The notes below the pieces were generated by a model, which was not told the DNA's origin, did not search any database, and saw nothing but the letters and a program-made list of their open reading frames with translations. From Gammaproteobacteria bacterium (GTDB lineage Bacteria > Pseudomonadota > Gammaproteobacteria > Tenderiales > Tenderiaceae): DNA of 6,510 nucleotides. The stretch covers positions 1-6,510 of the forward strand of contig JALTMR010000175.1 of the NCBI GenBank assembly GCA_027001525.1, in the 5' to 3' direction. The position numbers and the translations under genes are program-made. Shown one piece after another: positions 128 through 6,510 of this stretch; the first letter of the stretch is position 1, and each line of letters opens with the position of its first letter.

Positions 128-667
128 TTAGAGGCTCTGAATGGGCTCTTGCTTAGCCTGGCCGACGGCCTTGAGGCGTTTGCTGATGACCTTGGCATCG
201 GCTGCAAGGCGCAGTTCCGGTCTAAAGTGCACGCCCCGAAACTCGCCATCCACCGGTTGGGTGACGAGAAAGTAGGTTTGGCCGGCCTCGAAGTCAAAGA
301 TGCGGCTTTGCTTTACGGTTTCGACTTCCCAGCGACCCCGGGTCTGGGTCAGATTCTCCAGTGTGATGGTGATTTCATGGGGCTTGAGGTAGACCAGGGT
401 GTATTCGCCCTTGCCCAGTTTCATGAGTTCCTGGCCGTTGATGAGGACGTTGAGCGGGTTGTCCGGAAAGCCCTGCATGTGCTCCGTATTGGGGCGAATG
501 AAGTAGACTTTGGCGTACTCTGATTTCGCTGTGTTGTCGTGTTGAATGAGTGCGTTGCGGCTGTTGATTTCAGTCGTCGAGCAAGCCGTGAACAGCGTGA
601 CGAGCAGTGCCAGTCCTACCGTTGTCCAGGTGCTGAAGTGGTTGTCTCGCAAGGTCGTCTCTCTCAC
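128..667 (-). CDS. DUF2846-domain lipoprotein
   Basis: This is a predicted lipoprotein of up to 179 residues. The N-terminus has a hydrophobic stretch (VGLALLVTL) ending in the lipobox-like FTAC, with Cys29 as the lipidated residue. Ser at +2, not Asp, predicts sorting to the outer membrane. Residues 50-140 show the DUF2846 pattern: AKVYFIRPN, then a short beta-rich segment with NVLINGQE, LGKGEYTLVYLKPHEITI and a late AGQTYFLV strand. The function of DUF2846 proteins is unknown. The outer start is a GTG at 667 with a poor ribosome site. A TTG five codons in (652-650) is preceded by GAGAG and would still leave a complete signal peptide, so the true protein may be 174 residues. It lies 80 bases after the Omp85-like gene and 14 bases before the putative metallopeptidase, all on one strand, which suggests a shared envelope role. 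I see no terminator on either side. Confidence 0.85.
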   Translation of the reverse strand: MRETTLRDNHFSTWTTVGLALLVTLFTACSTTEINSRNALIQHDNTAKSEYAKVYFIRPNTEHMQGFPDNPLNVLINGQELMKLGKGEYTLVYLKPHEITITLENLTQTRGRWEVETVKQSRIFDFEAGQTYFLVTQPVDGEFRGVHFRPELRLAADAKVISKRLKAVGQAKQEPIQSL

Positions 668-747
668 TGCCTAGTATTGGGTATCTGCTGCGCTGTCGGG
701 CCAGTCTACGATATCGGTCCCGAATATTCCATACGGGCCCTGGCAGG

Positions 748-2064
748 CTAAAAGGAGTTTCGGGTACCGATGTAGCTTCGTTTTTCCGCAGTCTCCAGGT
801 TATAGGCGACATCCACCCTGATTTGTAAGTTGACGAATGATTTCAGGCGGTAGCGAATGCCAAACCCCGGGCCGGCATCGAGGTCGCCGAAATCGATGAT
901 GCGGTTGTCGTAATAGGCGTTGCCGATATCGAAAAAGGCGACGCCCCGAAAGGCGGGTTGGTTAAACAAGGGGGTCAGGTACTCGATGTTGAAGGCGAAG
1001 AAGGAGCGGCCGGGTCGGCTGCCCTTGTCCAGTGCTCTTAACGTGCGGCTGCCGCCTACCGAAAAGGCGTAGTCGCCCAACACCAGGGTACCGCCGGAAA
1101 ATCCGAGTTGAAGCTGAAAGTTAAGGTTCCGGTGGGGGTGCTGCCCCACCGGCCAGTATCGGCGATAGTAAAATTTGTTGGTGGAGTAGGTGGCATCGGA
1201 GCCCAGTTGAGTCATTCCCACTCGCAAGTCGTAGCCGTACCGGCTTCCGCCACGGCTGAAGAGGTAGTCGTGAACCAGTTTGTGGCTGATGCTGAAGGTC
1301 AGGCCGGCGGCGTGACCGGGGTTTGCTGTATTGGGTACGCCGGAGACATATTCGTGTTTTTGCTTTTTCCAAAACCAGCCGCTGCGAACGCTCCAGCCGA
1401 CACTGGGCCCTGTGCGGTTGAGCCAGCGCCTGATGCTGAATGTGGCCCCTTCGGTCTTCTCCTGGTATTCCGAAATAACGGCACCATTTTCGCTGACATC
1501 GAAGGGGCCAACGGTGTACTCCAGCCCCATTTTCAGGTCGTAGTGAGTGCCGCCGATGCGGGGTGATTCGTAGTCGAGGGAGGTGGCGTTCCGATTTCCC
1601 TCCAGAGTGCAGCAGTTGCGCTCAGTTTTGTAGGTTAATTTCAACTTCTGGTTGAGGCCGGCCAGGTTGTCAAAGCGCAGTTGTGCGCCGTAGCTGATGT
1701 CGCCGTCGGGCGAGCGTTTGAGTTTGGGAATGGGGAAAAAGTAGTATTTTTCCGATACGCTGATGGTGAGTATTTGCCCCTGTGTGCCCTCCCTAAGCGC
1801 TGTGCGTACCGACTTAAACAGGCCAAGATCCATGATGGCCTGACGGGATTTTTTTATCCGTGCGGGATCGGCGGGGTCTCCAACCCCAACGAACATCTCT
1901 TGCAGGATAATTCTTGCCTGGGTGGTGGTGTTGCCCTCGATCTGAATGGCCTCGATGGGCAGGTAGGCCGCACAGCTACCACTCCAAAGTGCGAGCCAAA
2001 GGCTCACCCAGATGGCGGAGAATTGCTTGTGGGCTGGGCATGGAGCCCTCCAAAACAACGACAT
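748..2064 (-). CDS. BamA/TamA-family (Omp85) outer-membrane protein with a single POTRA
   Basis: The 438-residue product has a signal peptide (about residues 1-33, hydrophobic core FSAIWVSLWLALW, likely cut after SCAA). One POTRA-like domain follows (about 35-105; IEAIQIEGNTTT, then SRQAIMDLGLFKSV and an ISVSEK strand). From about residue 120 to the C-terminal Phe438 there is a series of alternating beta strands that makes a 16-strand-type barrel. VGGSRTLRAL (336-345) sits where Omp85 proteins carry the L6 motif (V/I)RG(F/Y): the arginine is kept but the glycine is alanine. The late strands (FNIEYLTPLF, GVAFFDIGNAYYD, GPGFGIRYR) are typical of the bacterial surface antigen family. It is much shorter than BamA (5 POTRAs) or TamA (3 POTRAs), so it is neither of these essential proteins. 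Its substrate is unknown. The ATG has AGGA about nine bases upstream. The gene is divergent from prkB and heads the leftward gene set with the DUF2846 lipoprotein. Confidence 0.9.
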   Translation of the reverse strand: MSLFWRAPCPAHKQFSAIWVSLWLALWSGSCAAYLPIEAIQIEGNTTTQARIILQEMFVGVGDPADPARIKKSRQAIMDLGLFKSVRTALREGTQGQILTISVSEKYYFFPIPKLKRSPDGDISYGAQLRFDNLAGLNQKLKLTYKTERNCCTLEGNRNATSLDYESPRIGGTHYDLKMGLEYTVGPFDVSENGAVISEYQEKTEGATFSIRRWLNRTGPSVGWSVRSGWFWKKQKHEYVSGVPNTANPGHAAGLTFSISHKLVHDYLFSRGGSRYGYDLRVGMTQLGSDATYSTNKFYYRRYWPVGQHPHRNLNFQLQLGFSGGTLVLGDYAFSVGGSRTLRALDKGSRPGRSFFAFNIEYLTPLFNQPAFRGVAFFDIGNAYYDNRIIDFGDLDAGPGFGIRYRLKSFVNLQIRVDVAYNLETAEKRSYIGTRNSF

Positions 2065-2422
2065 TTACTCATCCTGTGGTATTGCAGCGTGTATCCGTAC
2101 GGTGAAGCCGTTTATGGCACCCACACCAGGGTATCGGCGGCCCGGCCTGTTGAGTTCAGTGGCTGGCCTAAAAAGTCGCAAATCTGTCGGCTTGTTGTAT
2201 AATCGACGGTTTCCCGATAGCTGTAGTCGCCTTGATTTACCGTGGATGGATCGAAATATCTGTCTGTTTTGTAAGCTGATCGTAACAAAAAATCTCCTTG
2301 TAATTGGGGGGCAGTTTCTGGTGGTCAGGCCCAAATTCAATGCCGGTTGCCGCCGTGGTGCGGGCAGCCTGCGGAACGCGTTATTTAACTAAGTAGTCAT
2401 TCATCATACTAAGGAGGACATC
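2065..2422. other. Divergent intergenic region between the Omp85-like gene and prkB
   Basis: These 358 bases hold no convincing gene and must contain the promoters of both flanking transcription units. On the plus strand there is one perfect TATAAT (2198-2203) and, at the right end, a strong Shine-Dalgarno AAGGAGG (2411-2417) five bases before the prkB ATG. On the minus strand AGGA precedes the Omp85-like ATG. The reverse complement of the TATAAT box (ATTATA) could serve a leftward promoter in nearly the same place, but no good -35 box supports either direction. An 8-base palindrome, CCGTACGG, is at 2095-2102. I recognise no riboswitch, terminator or known operator. Confidence 0.7.
2175..2203 (+). 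promoter_or_regulatory. Possible sigma-70 promoter for prkB
   Basis: A perfect -10 hexamer TATAAT lies at 2198-2203. The hexamer 17 bases upstream (GTCGCA, 2175-2180) matches the TTGACA consensus at only three of six positions. There is an A-rich run just upstream (about 2170-2174). Transcription would start near 2210 and leave a leader of about 210 bases before the prkB start, which is long. The -10 match is exact, but the weak -35 and the distance keep confidence low. Confidence 0.35.
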
Positions 2423-3295
2423 ATGTCCAGAAAGCATCCTGTTGTTGCTGTTACCGGTTCATCTGGTGCGGGAACGTCGACTGTTAAGTCTGCGATGGAG
2501 CATATTTTTCGCCGCGAAGGGCTGAAAGCTCAGGTTGTAGAGGGTGACAGCTTTCACCGTTACGATCGTGTGGCGATGAAAGAGGCAGTGGCGAAGGCTC
2601 AGGCGGAGGGGCGTACACTGAGCCACTTTGGTGATGAGGGTAATGTGTTCGACAAGCTCGAAGAGCTGTTTCGTACTTACGGCGAGACAGGTCTTGGCCA
2701 AATTCGTCGTTACCTGCATAACGAAGAAGAGGCTGAGCCATACGGCCAGCAGCCCGGTGAGTTCACTCCCTGGGAGGAGATCGCTCCTGGTTCTGACCTG
2801 CTGTTCTACGAAGGGCTGCACGGTGGTGTGGTGACCGACACAGTCGATGTTGCCCAGTGGGTTGATCTGCTGGTGGGTGTGGTGCCTATCGTTAACCTGG
2901 AGTGGATCCAGAAGATCCATCGTGATAGCGCCGAGCGTGGATATTCCGCAGAAGCGATCGTTGATACCATTTTGCGCCGTATGCCGGATTACGTGACCTG
3001 CGTGACGCCTCAGTTCTCCCGCACTGATGTGAACTTTCAGCGTGTGCCCATTGTTGATACTTCCAACCCGTTCATTGCCCGCGATATTCCCACGCCCGAT
3101 GAAAGCTTTTGTGTGATTCGTTTCCGCTACCCGAAGAAGCATGATCTGGGCTTCTACCTGAATATGCTGCAAGGGTCCTGGATGTCTCGCCCGAACACGA
3201 TGGTGTTGCCGGCGAGTAAAATGGGCATGGCGATGGAGGTTATTCTGACTCCCATCATCCATGATCTGATTGAAAAGAAACGTACTGCCTCCTGA
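2423..3295 (+). CDS. prkB: Phosphoribulokinase (PrkB/CbbP class I family)
   Basis: This is a complete 290-residue protein of the bacterial class I phosphoribulokinase family, which phosphorylates ribulose 5-phosphate with ATP to give ribulose 1,5-bisphosphate in the cytoplasm. The P-loop is GSSGAGTS (12-19); threonine replaces the usual Walker lysine, which is normal for this family. EGDSFHRYDR (40-49) supplies the catalytic base Asp42 and substrate residues His45 and Arg49. FYEGLHGG (128-135) carries Glu130, and LEWIQKIHRD (159-168) carries Lys164, Arg167 and Asp168. VDTSNPFIA and GSWMSR are further family signatures. The length equals that of E. coli PrkB (about 289) and Rhodobacter PRK (about 290). 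By eye, several segments (STVK, IFRREG, IHRD, GSWMSR) are closer to Calvin-cycle CbbP than to E. coli PrkB. The start has AAGGAGG five bases upstream. It is transcribed alone, with a terminator straight after it, and no RuBisCO gene is visible, so its role here may not be carbon fixation. Confidence 0.95.
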   Translation: MSRKHPVVAVTGSSGAGTSTVKSAMEHIFRREGLKAQVVEGDSFHRYDRVAMKEAVAKAQAEGRTLSHFGDEGNVFDKLEELFRTYGETGLGQIRRYLHNEEEAEPYGQQPGEFTPWEEIAPGSDLLFYEGLHGGVVTDTVDVAQWVDLLVGVVPIVNLEWIQKIHRDSAERGYSAEAIVDTILRRMPDYVTCVTPQFSRTDVNFQRVPIVDTSNPFIARDIPTPDESFCVIRFRYPKKHDLGFYLNMLQGSWMSRPNTMVLPASKMGMAMEVILTPIIHDLIEKKRTAS

Positions 3296-3309
3296 TTGGG
3301 TGGTACCAG

Positions 3310-3334
3310 AAAGGGGCCTGAGGGCCCCTTTTTT
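3310..3334 (+). terminator. Rho-independent terminator after prkB
   Basis: A perfect stem AAAGGGGCC / GGCCCCTTT (3310-3318 and 3323-3331) closes on the 4-base loop TGAG. Together with the stem end it gives a run of six T (3329-3334). It starts 14 bases after the prkB stop. The A-tract before the stem and the T-tract after it would allow some function on the minus strand too, but no gene ends here on that strand. Confidence 0.95.
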
Positions 3335-3347
3335 GTGTCCGTATTTC

Positions 3348-3408
3348 GGGTGTAACTAAAGTGTCGTCGAATTTGTGACGAATAAGGGGTGTAACTCACT
3401 TTACCCCC
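3348..3408. repeat. Repeated 10-mer and inverted repeats upstream of the TPR operon
   Basis: GGGTGTAACT occurs twice in the same orientation (3348-3357 and 3387-3396), 39 bases apart start to start. Between the copies is a short inverted repeat TCGTC/GACGA (3364-3368 and 3377-3381, 8-base gap). The second copy is also part of an imperfect hairpin, GGGG-T-GTAA (3386-3394) against TTACCCCC (3401-3408), with one bulged T and no T-tract. Its place between the prkB terminator and the next operon suggests a regulator-binding site, but I do not recognise the motif and no clear -35/-10 pair accompanies it. Confidence 0.4.
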
Positions 3409-3533
3409 GTGATTGAGATAGGGCACAATTGCGCGACGCATCTCAGCGGGATATGGAAATGCTGGTGATTGTTGTTCTGCCCCCGGTGTGAGGGTGGGGT
3501 GCCCTTTCTCTTCTTGTTTTGTTGACTATCTTT

Positions 3534-3537
3534 GAGG
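3534..3537 (+). promoter_or_regulatory. Ribosome binding site that favours the GTG start at 3543
   Basis: GAGG lies five bases before GTG at 3543. The frame is open back to a TGA at 3489, and TTG codons at 3519 and 3522 are possible starts, but neither has a purine-rich site upstream (the preceding bases are mostly C and T). Starting at 3543 also gives a standard signal peptide. Confidence 0.55.
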
Positions 3538-3542
3538 CTTCG

Positions 3543-4085
3543 GTGGCGCTGCTTAAAGCATTACGGAAGGTGCTGACTTTCGTTTTCATTACGGTTTCAT
3601 CTCCAGTGTGGCTAACCACGGCCTACGCTGACGCACCGCTGTGGAATTTTTCCTCACTCTCGGAGGAGATGCTGGGTTTGCAGCGTGATCTTCTTGTCAT
3701 TGAACAAAAGGATGAGGCAAAGCAGGGCAATGAGCGGATTCTCATCTACCTGGATGTGGGCAACGTGCCAGAGCTTAAACTGGAAAGCGTGGAGCTTGTC
3801 CTGGATGGTGAGGTGGTGGTCGTTCGCTCTGTTGATGCTGAGCAGCGCGCCGCCTTTGAACAGGGCGGGATGGAAAAGCTCTACGTCGGCCGTCTCGCGC
3901 CAGGCCAGCATACTCTTCAGGCCCGATTCAGTGGTGTCTTTAACGGTGCCTATAGCCATGAAAAAACCTATCCGTTTGAAACAGAAAAGGGCATTACTGT
4001 GATGAGAGTTGCCATCATTGATGTCATGCACCAACAGCAGTCGGAGTTGGTGTTTTTTCCTGAATTTGTGTTTCATCAGGAGTAG
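3543..4085 (+). CDS. Small secreted protein, first gene of a TPR operon; function unknown
   Basis: From GTG 3543 the product is 180 residues (188 if TTG 3519 is used). It has a standard signal peptide: basic MALLKALRK, a hydrophobic core (VLTFVFITV) and an AYA cleavage site before Asp30. The mature protein of about 150 residues begins with a short helix (SLSEEMLGLQRDLLVIEQ) and then alternates strands: RILIYLDVG, LKLESVELVLDGE, MEKLYVGRLAPGQHTLQARFSG, MRVAIID. This suggests a small periplasmic beta-sandwich. I recall similar proteins (helix, LSLDVG-like strand, LDG, LY.G.L..G.H.L) encoded ahead of two TPR proteins in many proteobacteria, sometimes mislabelled as AraC-family regulators; no helix-turn-helix is visible here. 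The next gene starts 12 bases after the TAG stop, so the two are surely cotranscribed. The prkB terminator upstream means this operon needs its own promoter, which I cannot place with confidence. Confidence 0.8.
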   Translation: MALLKALRKVLTFVFITVSSPVWLTTAYADAPLWNFSSLSEEMLGLQRDLLVIEQKDEAKQGNERILIYLDVGNVPELKLESVELVLDGEVVVVRSVDAEQRAAFEQGGMEKLYVGRLAPGQHTLQARFSGVFNGAYSHEKTYPFETEKGITVMRVAIIDVMHQQQSELVFFPEFVFHQE

Positions 4086-4089
4086 CTCC
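4078..4089 (+). promoter_or_regulatory. Shine-Dalgarno within a stop-codon hairpin
   Basis: The only purine-rich ribosome site before the ATG at 4098 is AGGAG (4078-4082), 15 bases away, which is far for direct initiation. GGAG (4079-4082) can pair with CTCC (4086-4089) around a loop that is exactly the TAG stop of the preceding gene. A ribosome finishing the upstream gene would open this short stem, so the second gene may be translationally coupled. The stem has only four pairs. Confidence 0.3.
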
Positions 4090-4097
4090 GCCCGACT

Positions 4098-5579
4098 ATG
4101 GATCAGACACTGCCACTCAACCGCGTTTCGTTATTGCTGCTGATTTTCATTAGCTGTTTTGCTTTTTCTTCCGCCTCACCTGCTTCTGAGTCTGAGTCAG
4201 TTGATTTCAGCAAGGCAAAAAATGTGCTTTTGGGTGAGGCGATTGAGGCGGCGGCTTTTAACAGGGATTTTCGCAGTGCAGCTCTGTTGCAGTTAGCTCT
4301 GGATCAGCAGCAGCTCAGCGAGCGCGATGAGCTGCCCTTACTCTACCTGGCAAAAAAGTACGTCGAGCTGGGGTTAGCTGGCCGGGCCATGGACGTGTAC
4401 CGTTTGATTGCCGAACAGGGTGAGGGAGAGCGCTCCGAACGGGCGTGGTTGGCCTATGCAAAGCTCGCCATCGACAATGCCCGTTTTGACCTGGCTGAGC
4501 AGGCACTGCCCCACACGGGAAAGCGGCTCGATAATGAGCAGCGGGTGGAGCTGGGGGTCATTCAGTCCCTTGTCTATTTGCACCAGAGAAAAGAGAAAGC
4601 AGCTATCAGAGCGCTGCCAAAATTCAAACATGACACGGATTGGTCACTCTACCAGCGCTACAACATCGCGGTGACCTTGCTGAGTCACTACCGCAACAAG
4701 CGCGGCGCGCTGATCCTGGGCGAGCTGGCCAAGCTTGACGTGCAAAATGACCCAGCCAAAGCAGCCCTGCGTGATCAGGCAAATCTGGCGCTGGGCTATA
4801 GCTTGCTTCAGCTCAACAAGGCCAGGCAAGCGCGTAAATACCTCGCCAAAATCAATCTGGATACTCTGATGGCCAGTCAGGCACTGTTAGGCATGGGCTG
4901 GGCCTACTCGGCCGAGAACAACTACAGGAAAGCACTGGTTTATTGGCTGGAGCTTCAAAAAAACAGCATAACCAATACCCAGCTCTACGAATCAGCCCTC
5001 GCTGTGCCCTACGGGTTCGGGCGGGCCGGGGCAGTGAATCGGGCGGCTGAAGCTTATGATGACGCCATTCACCGCTTTGAAGCAGATATCGTGGCGATGA
5101 ATGCCGCCAAAGAAGAGATAGCACGCGGTATGTTGGTCACTCTGCTCCGAGCGGGGGACCCGGCCGATGAGTTCAGCTGGTTAGATGCCTGGCGCAGTGC
5201 GCCCACCCGCATTGGCGTCGGAAAGTTTGTCCCGCTACTGATGGAGAGTCCCGTCTTTCAGCAGGCGCTTCAGGAGTATCGCTACATCTTGAAACTGCGG
5301 GAACGCTACAAATCGATGGATGAAGGGGTGGCCCAATTGGAGGCGTTGCCCCACGCCGCGCAATTACAGTCCGACATATCTGCAGCCCATGCCAGATACC
5401 TGGCCATTGGTGAGGCCTTTCGCTCCGCGATCGACACTGGTGAAGAACATTTGAACGCTTTGGCGACAGAGATCCTTGAAAGCCATCAGCAACAGCTTAA
5501 AAATTATGGGCAGCAAGCCCGTTTTGGCTTGGCTCAAGCGATAGAGCAGGCAGCGTTTGGTCGGAGGGAGAGTGATTAA
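4098..5579 (+). CDS. Secreted TPR-like helical-repeat protein
   Basis: The 493-residue product starts with a signal peptide (hydrophobic SLLLLIFISCFAF, likely cut after SSA near residue 26). FISC at Cys20 is a poor lipobox, so a soluble periplasmic protein is more likely than a lipoprotein. The rest is predicted almost entirely helical, with degenerate tetratricopeptide-like pairs: LLYLAKKYVELGLAGRAMDVY (82-101), AWLAYAKLAIDNARFDLAEQAL (116-137), ANLALGYSLLQLNKARQARKYL (228-249) and QALLGMGWAYSAENNYRKALVYW (261-283), followed by YESALAVPYGFGRAG. After about residue 325 the repeats fade into a charged helical region (HRFEAD to the end) that may form coiled coil. The GMGWAY...YRKAL..W...LAVPY block matches my memory of a proteobacterial family whose genes sit beside a TPR lipoprotein. 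A role as a scaffold in a periplasmic complex is inferred. Its TAA stop overlaps the next ATG by one base. Confidence 0.85.
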   Translation: MDQTLPLNRVSLLLLIFISCFAFSSASPASESESVDFSKAKNVLLGEAIEAAAFNRDFRSAALLQLALDQQQLSERDELPLLYLAKKYVELGLAGRAMDVYRLIAEQGEGERSERAWLAYAKLAIDNARFDLAEQALPHTGKRLDNEQRVELGVIQSLVYLHQRKEKAAIRALPKFKHDTDWSLYQRYNIAVTLLSHYRNKRGALILGELAKLDVQNDPAKAALRDQANLALGYSLLQLNKARQARKYLAKINLDTLMASQALLGMGWAYSAENNYRKALVYWLELQKNSITNTQLYESALAVPYGFGRAGAVNRAAEAYDDAIHRFEADIVAMNAAKEEIARGMLVTLLRAGDPADEFSWLDAWRSAPTRIGVGKFVPLLMESPVFQQALQEYRYILKLRERYKSMDEGVAQLEALPHAAQLQSDISAAHARYLAIGEAFRSAIDTGEEHLNALATEILESHQQQLKNYGQQARFGLAQAIEQAAFGRRESD

Positions 5580-6510
5580 TGAATTTACGACGCGCTCTTC
5601 TCTTTCTCATGGCCCTTATTCTGACCGCCTGTGCTGGTACGCCGGAGCAAAACGACACGACGCTAGGCAGTTTGGATTCGATGGAGATCGACCTGGATGA
5701 GACTCCCCGCCAGGGGCTCAGCGTCGATCGTGCCATCGAAACCTATGAGGGGCTGGCACAGGACATTGGCGCAGGGGAGTTAAACGCGAAGGCTATGCGG
5801 AGTCTGGCCGATCTGGAAATGCAGCGCGTCGGCAAAGCCTTTGATGACGGGGATCCCTCGCTTGACGAGAACAGTTACGATAAGGCGATACACTGGTATC
5901 AAAAGCTGCTGGTTACCTATCCAAAATACCCTGAACGAGAGGATGTTCTATATCAGCTGGCCAGGGCTTATGAGCAGAGCGGACGAGTGGAGAAAGCGGT
6001 TCGGGCACTGAAGCTGGTTGCTCGTCTCTATCCTCATTCGCCCCGGGTCGATGAGGCCCATTTTCGGCGTGGAGAAATTCTGTTTGCGGATCTGCGTTAT
6101 GACGAGGCGGAGCATGCCTATTCCAACGTCGTGGCCATCGGGCACTCATCAAAATTCTACGAGCAAGCGCTGTTCAAATACGGTTGGTCTATCTACAAAC
6201 AGGACCGCTGTGTCGATTCTATGACGGTTTTTTTTACGCTACTGGATTCCAAGCTCAACCAGAATATGGCCCCCTCAGAGCTGTCCCAATTGGCGTTTCT
6301 GGAGAAGTCCGAGAAGGAGCTGGTCGGGGAGGTTGATCGGGTAATCAATCTTTGCGTGTCACAAAAAGATGATCCGGTCTATCTGTCCACCTACCTGGAG
6401 GGTAAACCCGCCCGGGCTTACGAGTTTTTGATCTATGAGTGGCTGGCCCAGTACTACCTCGAGCAGGAGCGCCCGTACGATGCGGCAAAAGTCTTTTCTG
6501 CCTTCTACAA
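5579..6510 (+). CDS. Outer-membrane TPR lipoprotein, 5' part (cut by the right edge)
   Basis: The ATG overlaps the preceding stop as TAATG, and the frame is open through 310 codons to the edge. The signal sequence MNLRRALLFLMALILTAC ends in a perfect lipobox (Leu15-Thr-Ala-Cys18). Ala at +2 predicts transfer to the outer membrane by the Lol system. An acidic low-complexity linker follows (about 19-45). Tandem TPR units are then clear: SYDKAIHWYQKLLVTYP (99-115), DVLYQLARAYEQSGRVEKAV with LVARLYPHSP (122-155), EAHFRRGEILFADLRYDEAEHAY (159-181) and FYEQALFKYGWSIYKQ (193-208). The array probably continues beyond the window, since this kind of protein is usually much longer. It resembles outer-membrane TPR lipoproteins such as GltE/AglT of the Myxococcus gliding machinery in layout only; I have not compared sequences. 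The start overlap means it is coupled to the periplasmic TPR gene, so the two products probably act in one envelope complex. Confidence 0.88.
   Translation, partial: MNLRRALLFLMALILTACAGTPEQNDTTLGSLDSMEIDLDETPRQGLSVDRAIETYEGLAQDIGAGELNAKAMRSLADLEMQRVGKAFDDGDPSLDENSYDKAIHWYQKLLVTYPKYPEREDVLYQLARAYEQSGRVEKAVRALKLVARLYPHSPRVDEAHFRRGEILFADLRYDEAEHAYSNVVAIGHSSKFYEQALFKYGWSIYKQDRCVDSMTVFFTLLDSKLNQNMAPSELSQLAFLEKSEKELVGEVDRVINLCVSQKDDPVYLSTYLEGKPARAYEFLIYEWLAQYYLEQERPYDAAKVFSAFY

Follow-up and report, generated by a model that had tools for sequence, protein, structure and literature searches.

The closest described relatives of the system considered here are the Agl-Glt gliding machinery of Myxococcus xanthus and the set of genes that Luciano et al. 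(2011; PMC3169522) named the core complex. According to the text of that study, gltC, gltD, gltE, gltG, aglR, aglQ and aglS lie in one region in all non-Deltaproteobacteria examined, the conserved core of non-gliding bacteria, itself of unknown function, has one additional gene, and the group A genes gltA, gltB, gltF, gltH, gltI, gltJ and gltK are reported only in Myxococcales and Bdellovibrionales, the core alone being argued to be insufficient for gliding. In Myxococcus, the AglRQS motor is described as driving both the Glt and the Nfs complex (PMC3858216). Here we describe a gene cluster that begins at the right-hand end of the window, the 6,510-nucleotide contig JALTMR010000175.1 of a gammaproteobacterium of the Tenderiaceae, which is one of the 583 contigs of a 2.75 Mb draft genome that is 88.3% complete. 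By its gene content, the locus is of a known kind, a gammaproteobacterial Agl/Glt core complex (Group B of Luciano et al., 2011). New here are an Asn/Asp asymmetry between its two ExbD proteins, two small proteins that accompany the block (one a predicted beta-sandwich, one linear-peptide-like), and recurring motor-less second copies. Below, C numbers denote contigs (C175 is the window), L numbers loci and G numbers genomes.

The cluster comprises nine genes in the order beta, GltC, GltD, GltE, 107-aa, TolQ, ExbD-1, ExbD-2 and GltG, and the first three lie on the plus strand of the window: gene 1 (beta; 3543-4085), an open reading frame (ORF) of 180 amino acids (aa) from a GTG at 3543, its start uncertain given an alternative TTG at 3519; gene 2 (GltC-like; 4098-5579), an ORF of 493 aa for a secreted TPR/helical-repeat protein; and gene 3 (GltD-like; 5579-6508), of which the first 310 codons are present, open to the window end at 6510. 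The original prediction, made from the letters of the window, had read these as genes for a small secreted beta-rich protein, a helical-repeat protein and an outer-membrane TPR lipoprotein, with a 12-base gap between the first two and a one-base overlap between the second and third; both spacings are exact. The description of gene 1 holds: its product has a hydrophobic, signal-like N-terminus (by eye) and is modelled as a helix (residues 36-59) followed by an eight-strand sandwich (mean pLDDT 77.5). It has no Pfam or NCBIfam match at E<=1, and homologues occupy the equivalent position in all 11 of the first relative loci. For gene 2, a TPR-type match (PF25063) is sub-threshold (E 0.00099; 19.5 bits, cut-off 35), and helical repeats are borne out by a relative (L029:7058-8521) that exceeds two Pfam cut-offs (ANAPC3, 30.3 against 27.2 bits; TPR_2, 29 against 27). 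Its homologues in the same family are 33-41% identical, and a longer form of about 610-650 aa occurs in other families. The product of gene 3, 937-945 aa at full length in close relatives, matches TPR families above their Pfam cut-offs (e.g. PF07719, 49.6 against 27 bits) and has a lipobox, LTAC (by eye), so that "TPR lipoprotein" stands and the outer-membrane location is presumptive. Because the sequence and order of all three genes are kept in other genomes, we regard them as real genes and not chance ORFs.

The last 127 bases of the window (6384-6510, a join without strand) are identical to C405:1-127, and C405 in turn shares its final 127 bases with the end of C425, taken on the minus strand; from these exact overlaps we infer that the cluster is contiguous across C175, C405 and C425. 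Contig C405 holds the remainder of the GltD-like gene (1-2030), a TPR lipoprotein gene (GltE-like; 2005-2628), the gene of a 107-aa secreted protein (2592-2915) and, from about 3003, the start of the TolQ gene, which is completed on C425. On the minus strand of C425 follow ExbD-1 (1996-2508) and ExbD-2 (1499-1996), both of the PF02472 family, and GltG (485-1492; NF033768), a TonB-like protein of 335 aa with an AgmX/PglI tail, with an AFG1-type ATPase gene about 150 bases further on. The MotA/TolQ/ExbB-type gene scores 100.9 bits with PF01618 against a cut-off of 22.9 (C425 part), the two ExbD/TolR-type genes 52.4 and 58.4 bits with PF02472 against 25.4, and the GltG tail 71.4 bits with the AgmX/PglI model NF033768 against 40. 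Gene content and order, and the families of the motor genes and of the GltG tail, are thus established at the level of sequence. The original prediction had placed TolQ/ExbB, TolR/ExbD and AgmX/PglI-type genes just beyond position 6510, and this is where they are; the genes that follow the window are not foreign to TolQR-type motors.

Genes assigned to all seven core families (gltG, aglR, aglQ and aglS and, more tentatively, gltC, gltD and gltE) are found in one region, in the source genome by way of the contig overlaps and in relatives on single contigs, as in the core complex of Luciano et al. (2011), with duplicates in some genomes; that paper's text has one extra gene without Myxococcales homologues, whereas two small genes (beta and 107-aa), each a candidate for it, accompany the block here. 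The remark in the original prediction that core parts had been reported in gammaproteobacteria of unknown need for gliding matches the same text (PMC3169522). Common to this cluster and the Agl-Glt system of M. xanthus are an AglR-type channel, two ExbD-type proteins, a GltG-type transducer, the TPR proteins C, D and E, and a small secreted gene directly after gltE (gltF in Myxococcus). The GltD-like and GltE-like proteins are both TPR proteins with a lipobox (by eye). The family models give a weaker signal for some members: the gliding_GltE model scores below the PilW model on the same GltE-like protein, the gene 2 protein has no GltC match in the NCBIfam scan, and gliding_GltC is matched in one of three long-form gene 2 relatives scanned (L032; E 0.00045, 19.1 against 450 bits). 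Pfam finds no match in this GltG to the FHA domain of Myxococcus GltG. We discarded NF033758 as evidence, as it hits only generic TPR proteins in the source genome and has matches in 10 of 14 control genomes.

A TolQ/ExbB channel, TolR/ExbD proteins and a TonB-like transducer reaching the outer membrane are also common to the Tol-Pal and Ton systems, and matches to TolQ, to YbgF/CpoB-like TPR proteins and to TonB_C-like sequences would suit a Tol-Pal or Ton energiser paralogue, serving envelope constriction or nutrient uptake and little tied to Agl/Glt. We consider this very unlikely. Scores fall far under the equivalog cut-offs for TolQ (TIGR02796, 68.3 against 221 bits) and ExbB (TIGR02797, 43.2 against 206.2), measured on the C425 part without the first residues on C405, and the full-length TolQ of L029 is likewise below both (69 and 47.7 bits). 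Moreover, TolB, Pal and TonB-dependent receptors were not recognised among the genes of the cluster, where TPR proteins stand in place of TolB and Pal, and the two ExbD genes, the AgmX/PglI tail above its cut-off and the GltC-GltD-GltE order fit an Agl/Glt core. Together, these data support the earlier reading of the window as part of an Agl/Glt-like core, and we think it likely that the nine genes build a proton-driven machine that runs from the inner membrane through the periplasm to the outer membrane, a homologue of the core of the Myxococcus machineries for gliding (Agl/Glt) and for the spore coat (Agl/Nfs).

The arrangement is conserved in other genomes. Profiles for the nine proteins were run over 161 loci, made up of 91 (11 from relatives and 80 from named genomes, the best 80 of at least 570 confirmed stretches), 10 and 60; some genomes are present twice, and nine pairs of loci have identical ExbD-1. 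All nine genes were found in 94 of the 161 loci and stood in the nine-gene order in 91. The three loci out of order (L085, L227 and L238) have overlapping frames, a split match or a weak beta match, and of the 67 loci without all nine genes, many are truncated at contig ends or contain gene fusions, and others are motor-less copies or have sub-threshold matches. Unbroken equivalent order is found on single contigs of the relatives L024, L027, L028 and L029, and by tblastn also L025. In an even draw of 370 genomes from the class, 90 (about a quarter) carry GltD at E<=1e-60. Reading frames that fuse GltC to GltD (5 of 161 GltD frames; 4 without repeats) or GltD to GltE (13 of 161; 12 without repeats) occur in L100, L207, L209, L230 and L218, and in L031, L058 and others, and favour contact among the three proteins. 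A viral or plasmid origin was considered and rejected: the L024 copy of GltC gave four pattern stretches in viral_contigs, none confirmed as an encoded relative, and a search of 72,556 plasmid records with the L024 copy of GltD gave nothing at E<=1e-10.

The two ExbD proteins differ at the site of the essential Asp of ExbD and TolR. The transmembrane helix reads TAFMNLMVILVPFLL in ExbD-1 and VSLMDIFTILVFFLL in ExbD-2, with Asn22 in the former and Asp30 in the latter, so that only one of the two ExbD-type proteins of the source genome has a transmembrane Asp; phmmer aligns the Asn of ExbD-1 without gaps opposite Asp25 of ExbD (PDB chains 7ajq_F and 6tyi_Y). Across all loci where the ExbD match reaches 60 bits, 123 of 133 ExbD-1 rows have Asn and 10 have Asp (114 and 10 of 124 without repeats), all 128 ExbD-2 rows have Asp, and 118 of the 128 pairs combine Asn with Asp; the class sample has 47 Asn/Asp pairs and one Asp/Asp pair among 48. 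None of the 123 Asn rows has an acidic residue from -3 to +15 around the Asn. In an unrooted tree of 80 rows, trait column included, the eight Asp rows fall on one side of a single branch (support 100/98). A second tree was rooted on ExbD-2 after removal of the trait column and built by a short search on a subsample (55 of 133 ExbD-1 rows, namely all 10 Asp and 45 Asn, and 29 of 128 ExbD-2 rows); here ExbD-1 rows with Asp branch off close to the base, and the tree needs no more than one Asp-to-Asn change and one possible reversal (L150, on a long branch). This pattern fits a single ancient Asp-to-Asn change in ExbD-1.

In M. xanthus, by contrast, AglQ and AglS are both described as carrying a transmembrane Asp, and whether they form hetero- or homodimers is described as unknown in the text of PMC9389320; an engineered D28N substitution in AglQ abolishes conductance and paralyses both the Glt and Nfs complexes (PMC3858216). 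That the residue essential in AglQ is naturally Asn in ExbD-1 speaks against the idea that the cluster drives gliding in the source bacterium as it does in Myxococcus. The core motor and transducer are homologous to those of the gliding machinery, yet no group A genes are known for the core from the literature (none were searched for here), and since the text of PMC3169522 confines these genes to Myxococcales and Bdellovibrionales and argues the core to be insufficient, we judge gliding highly improbable.

These observations lead us to propose, as a serious possibility held tentatively, that the loci encode widespread envelope machines with a lopsided 5:2 motor, in which the ExbD heterodimer is obligate, one partner has permanently changed from Asp to Asn and each turn pair has only one proton site; a single such motor would serve two distinct trans-envelope transducers per cell. 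For the ExbD pair itself, we favour an obligate ExbD-1/ExbD-2 heterodimer with one proton site. The main rival, which we rate as rather unlikely, places ExbD-1 outside the pore: TolQ5 would enclose an ExbD-2 homodimer with two Asp, and ExbD-1 would be structural or peptidoglycan-binding, its helix off the proton path. A pore position is indeed not required of a protein that in 123 of 133 loci lacks the protonatable residue, and the Pro gained seven positions after the site in 118 of 123 Asn rows, and in none of the 10 Asp rows, could mark a new role. Drift would be expected outside the pore, yet the position is only ever Asn or Asp in 133 rows, and the flanking helix is as conserved in ExbD-1 as in ExbD-2 (in rows picked as Asn, the zero entropy at that column itself is by construction). 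Neither the asymmetry nor motor-less copies with a single GltG appear in the parts of the text of PMC3169522 that were covered. A literature search covering openly readable text returned no report of an Asn/Asp ExbD pair, for which we do not claim absence from print, and none on the function of the core complex.

The other half of the heterodimeric-motor proposal, the sharing of one motor, comes from copy numbers. Eleven genomes (G002, G005, G007, G010, G030, G082, G200, G227, G285, G286 and G352) have a GltD locus whose contig runs on downstream for some 4.5 kb or more without TolQ, ExbD or GltG (respectively L033, L132, L134, L131, L129, L233, L208, L212, L204, L236 and L213), and all eleven carry GltG elsewhere. 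Copies were counted in 18 genomes, most of them picked for having second copies; in 12, at least two GltD loci go with a single GltG. The source genome is one of these: its second GltD is a 788-aa fragment at the end of contig C353, and the 1.27 kb behind it contain neither GltE nor motor genes. The remaining GltD/GltG counts are 3/2 (G002 and G280), 2/2 (G195 and G165) and 1/1 (G004 and G069), and G165 and G280 each have two loci with their own motor. These counts suggest that two complexes often draw on one motor, as they do in Myxococcus. There, the Glt-like Nfs complex of the spore coat lacks a motor of its own and uses AglRQS, which parallels the motor-less copies, and sharing was demonstrated by two-hybrid assays and mutants (PMC3858216), as against copy numbers here.

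Several motor-less or long-form sets have distinctive neighbours. The third GltC-GltD-GltE-107-aa set of G002 (L148, G002:C23:28000-47999, at 1028-12337) lies about 45 bases behind type VI secretion genes on the same strand (gp25-like, TssF, TssG and a ClpV-type ATPase). Motor-less beta-GltC-GltD-GltE sets in L131 (659-11758), L132 (569-11690) and L134 (9578-19458, minus strand) directly follow genes on the same strand whose products are candidate cargo: one weakly matches DUF1585, one is lipoprotein-like and bears a lectin domain of the Laminin_G type, and one has a Tat-like signal (signals by eye). In a set of 89 loci (e.g. L033, L034 and L097), with labels tested on single members only, the recurrent neighbours upstream of the long-GltC type are thioredoxin-like proteins (33 loci), large lipoproteins akin to the HZS_alpha match of L033 (22), OMP-like proteins and DUF3570-like proteins (about 20 each) and proteins that we take to be ApbE-like (18).

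The two small proteins belong to large families, with at least 4407 relatives at E<=0.001 among at least 7999 scored candidates for beta and at least 1348 among at least 7996 for the 107-aa protein; no Pfam domain was found in 120 listed members of either. The fold search with the beta model returned 768 PDB matches at E<=10 but none at E<=0.001, the best being 5a9i_A (E 0.0044), so that we claim no family for it. Several beta-family members are named "AraC family transcriptional regulator" in their source records, a label unfitting for a secreted beta-sandwich protein. The 107-aa protein, without a family match in the NCBIfam scan, has six invariant columns across 70 sequences of its family, and a low-confidence model shows a signal helix, a long extended stretch with the conserved motif and a C-terminal helix. 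In Myxococcus the gene directly behind gltE is gltF (Table 1 of PMC3169522), and GltF is likened to a TonB box (PMC9389320); by gene position, the 107-aa protein may be GltF-like.

In the machine we envisage, a TolQ pentamer would surround one ExbD-1/ExbD-2 heterodimer. Only ExbD-2 would carry the proton, with ExbD-1 as its fixed polar partner and as an anchor to peptidoglycan. This motor would work GltG in the manner of TonB or TolA; the GltG tail, on a long Pro/Glu/Lys-rich arm, would cross the periplasm and grip the conserved linear motif of the 107-aa protein, and the TPR proteins GltC, GltD and GltE would relay force to a component of the outer membrane or cell surface, the presumed surface cargo of the machine, which would be moved or deposited. 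Second GltC-GltD copies without a motor would connect to this one, in the way that Nfs uses AglRQS in Myxococcus.

A number of points weigh against this picture. The machine is a prediction from its genes, and their adjacency in the source genome depends on contig overlaps. The NCBIfam gliding equivalog cut-offs are missed by far (GltE, 34.7 against 225 bits; GltG, 47.2 against 650), as is to be expected of core-complex homologues that are not gliding orthologues. The matches of ExbD-1 to the PDB ExbD chains are weak (E 0.013 and 0.062), and 10 of 128 ExbD pairs are Asp/Asp. As to motor sharing, a GltG match lies on the same contig as the third copy of G002 and the second copy of G195, about 27 and 13 kb off, and the single GltD locus of G069 has its GltG on another contig, so that some motor-less copies are probably split clusters; in addition, the drafts G000, G005, G007 and G010 (83-88% complete) may miss a second motor. 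Finally, the model of the 107-aa protein is poor (mean pLDDT 64, pTM 0.22), and the resemblance of its motif to a TonB box was judged by eye.

The rest of the window lies upstream of the cluster: a phosphoribulokinase/uridine-kinase-type gene (2423-3295; PF00485, 228 bits) and, on the opposite strand, an Omp85/POTRA gene and a DUF2846 gene (Pfam). Across 89 loci, these neighbours (window 128-3295) recur as the kinase in 8, the DUF2846 lipoprotein gene in 8 and the divergent Omp85 gene in 6, which is probably shared synteny. A scan of 3200-4200 gave no sigma-70-like promoter before gene 1 and four terminator-like sites against 1.3 expected; a GC-rich stem with a T run at about 3313-3334, seen by eye behind the kinase gene, is absent from that list. 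The Rfam scan of the window returned no RNA element at gathering score.

The core complex has been without an assigned function since 2011, though GltD is present in 90 of 370 sampled genomes of the class. Handles on what the machine moves come from its two small subunits, from the fused genes and from the neighbours that share an operon-like arrangement with the motor-less copies. Furthermore, a natural Asn/Asp family makes the question of the AglQ/AglS-type dimer directly testable, and it raises the question of how a 5:2 rotary motor would turn on a lone carboxylate, given that its engineered counterpart, AglQ D28N of Myxococcus, does not work.

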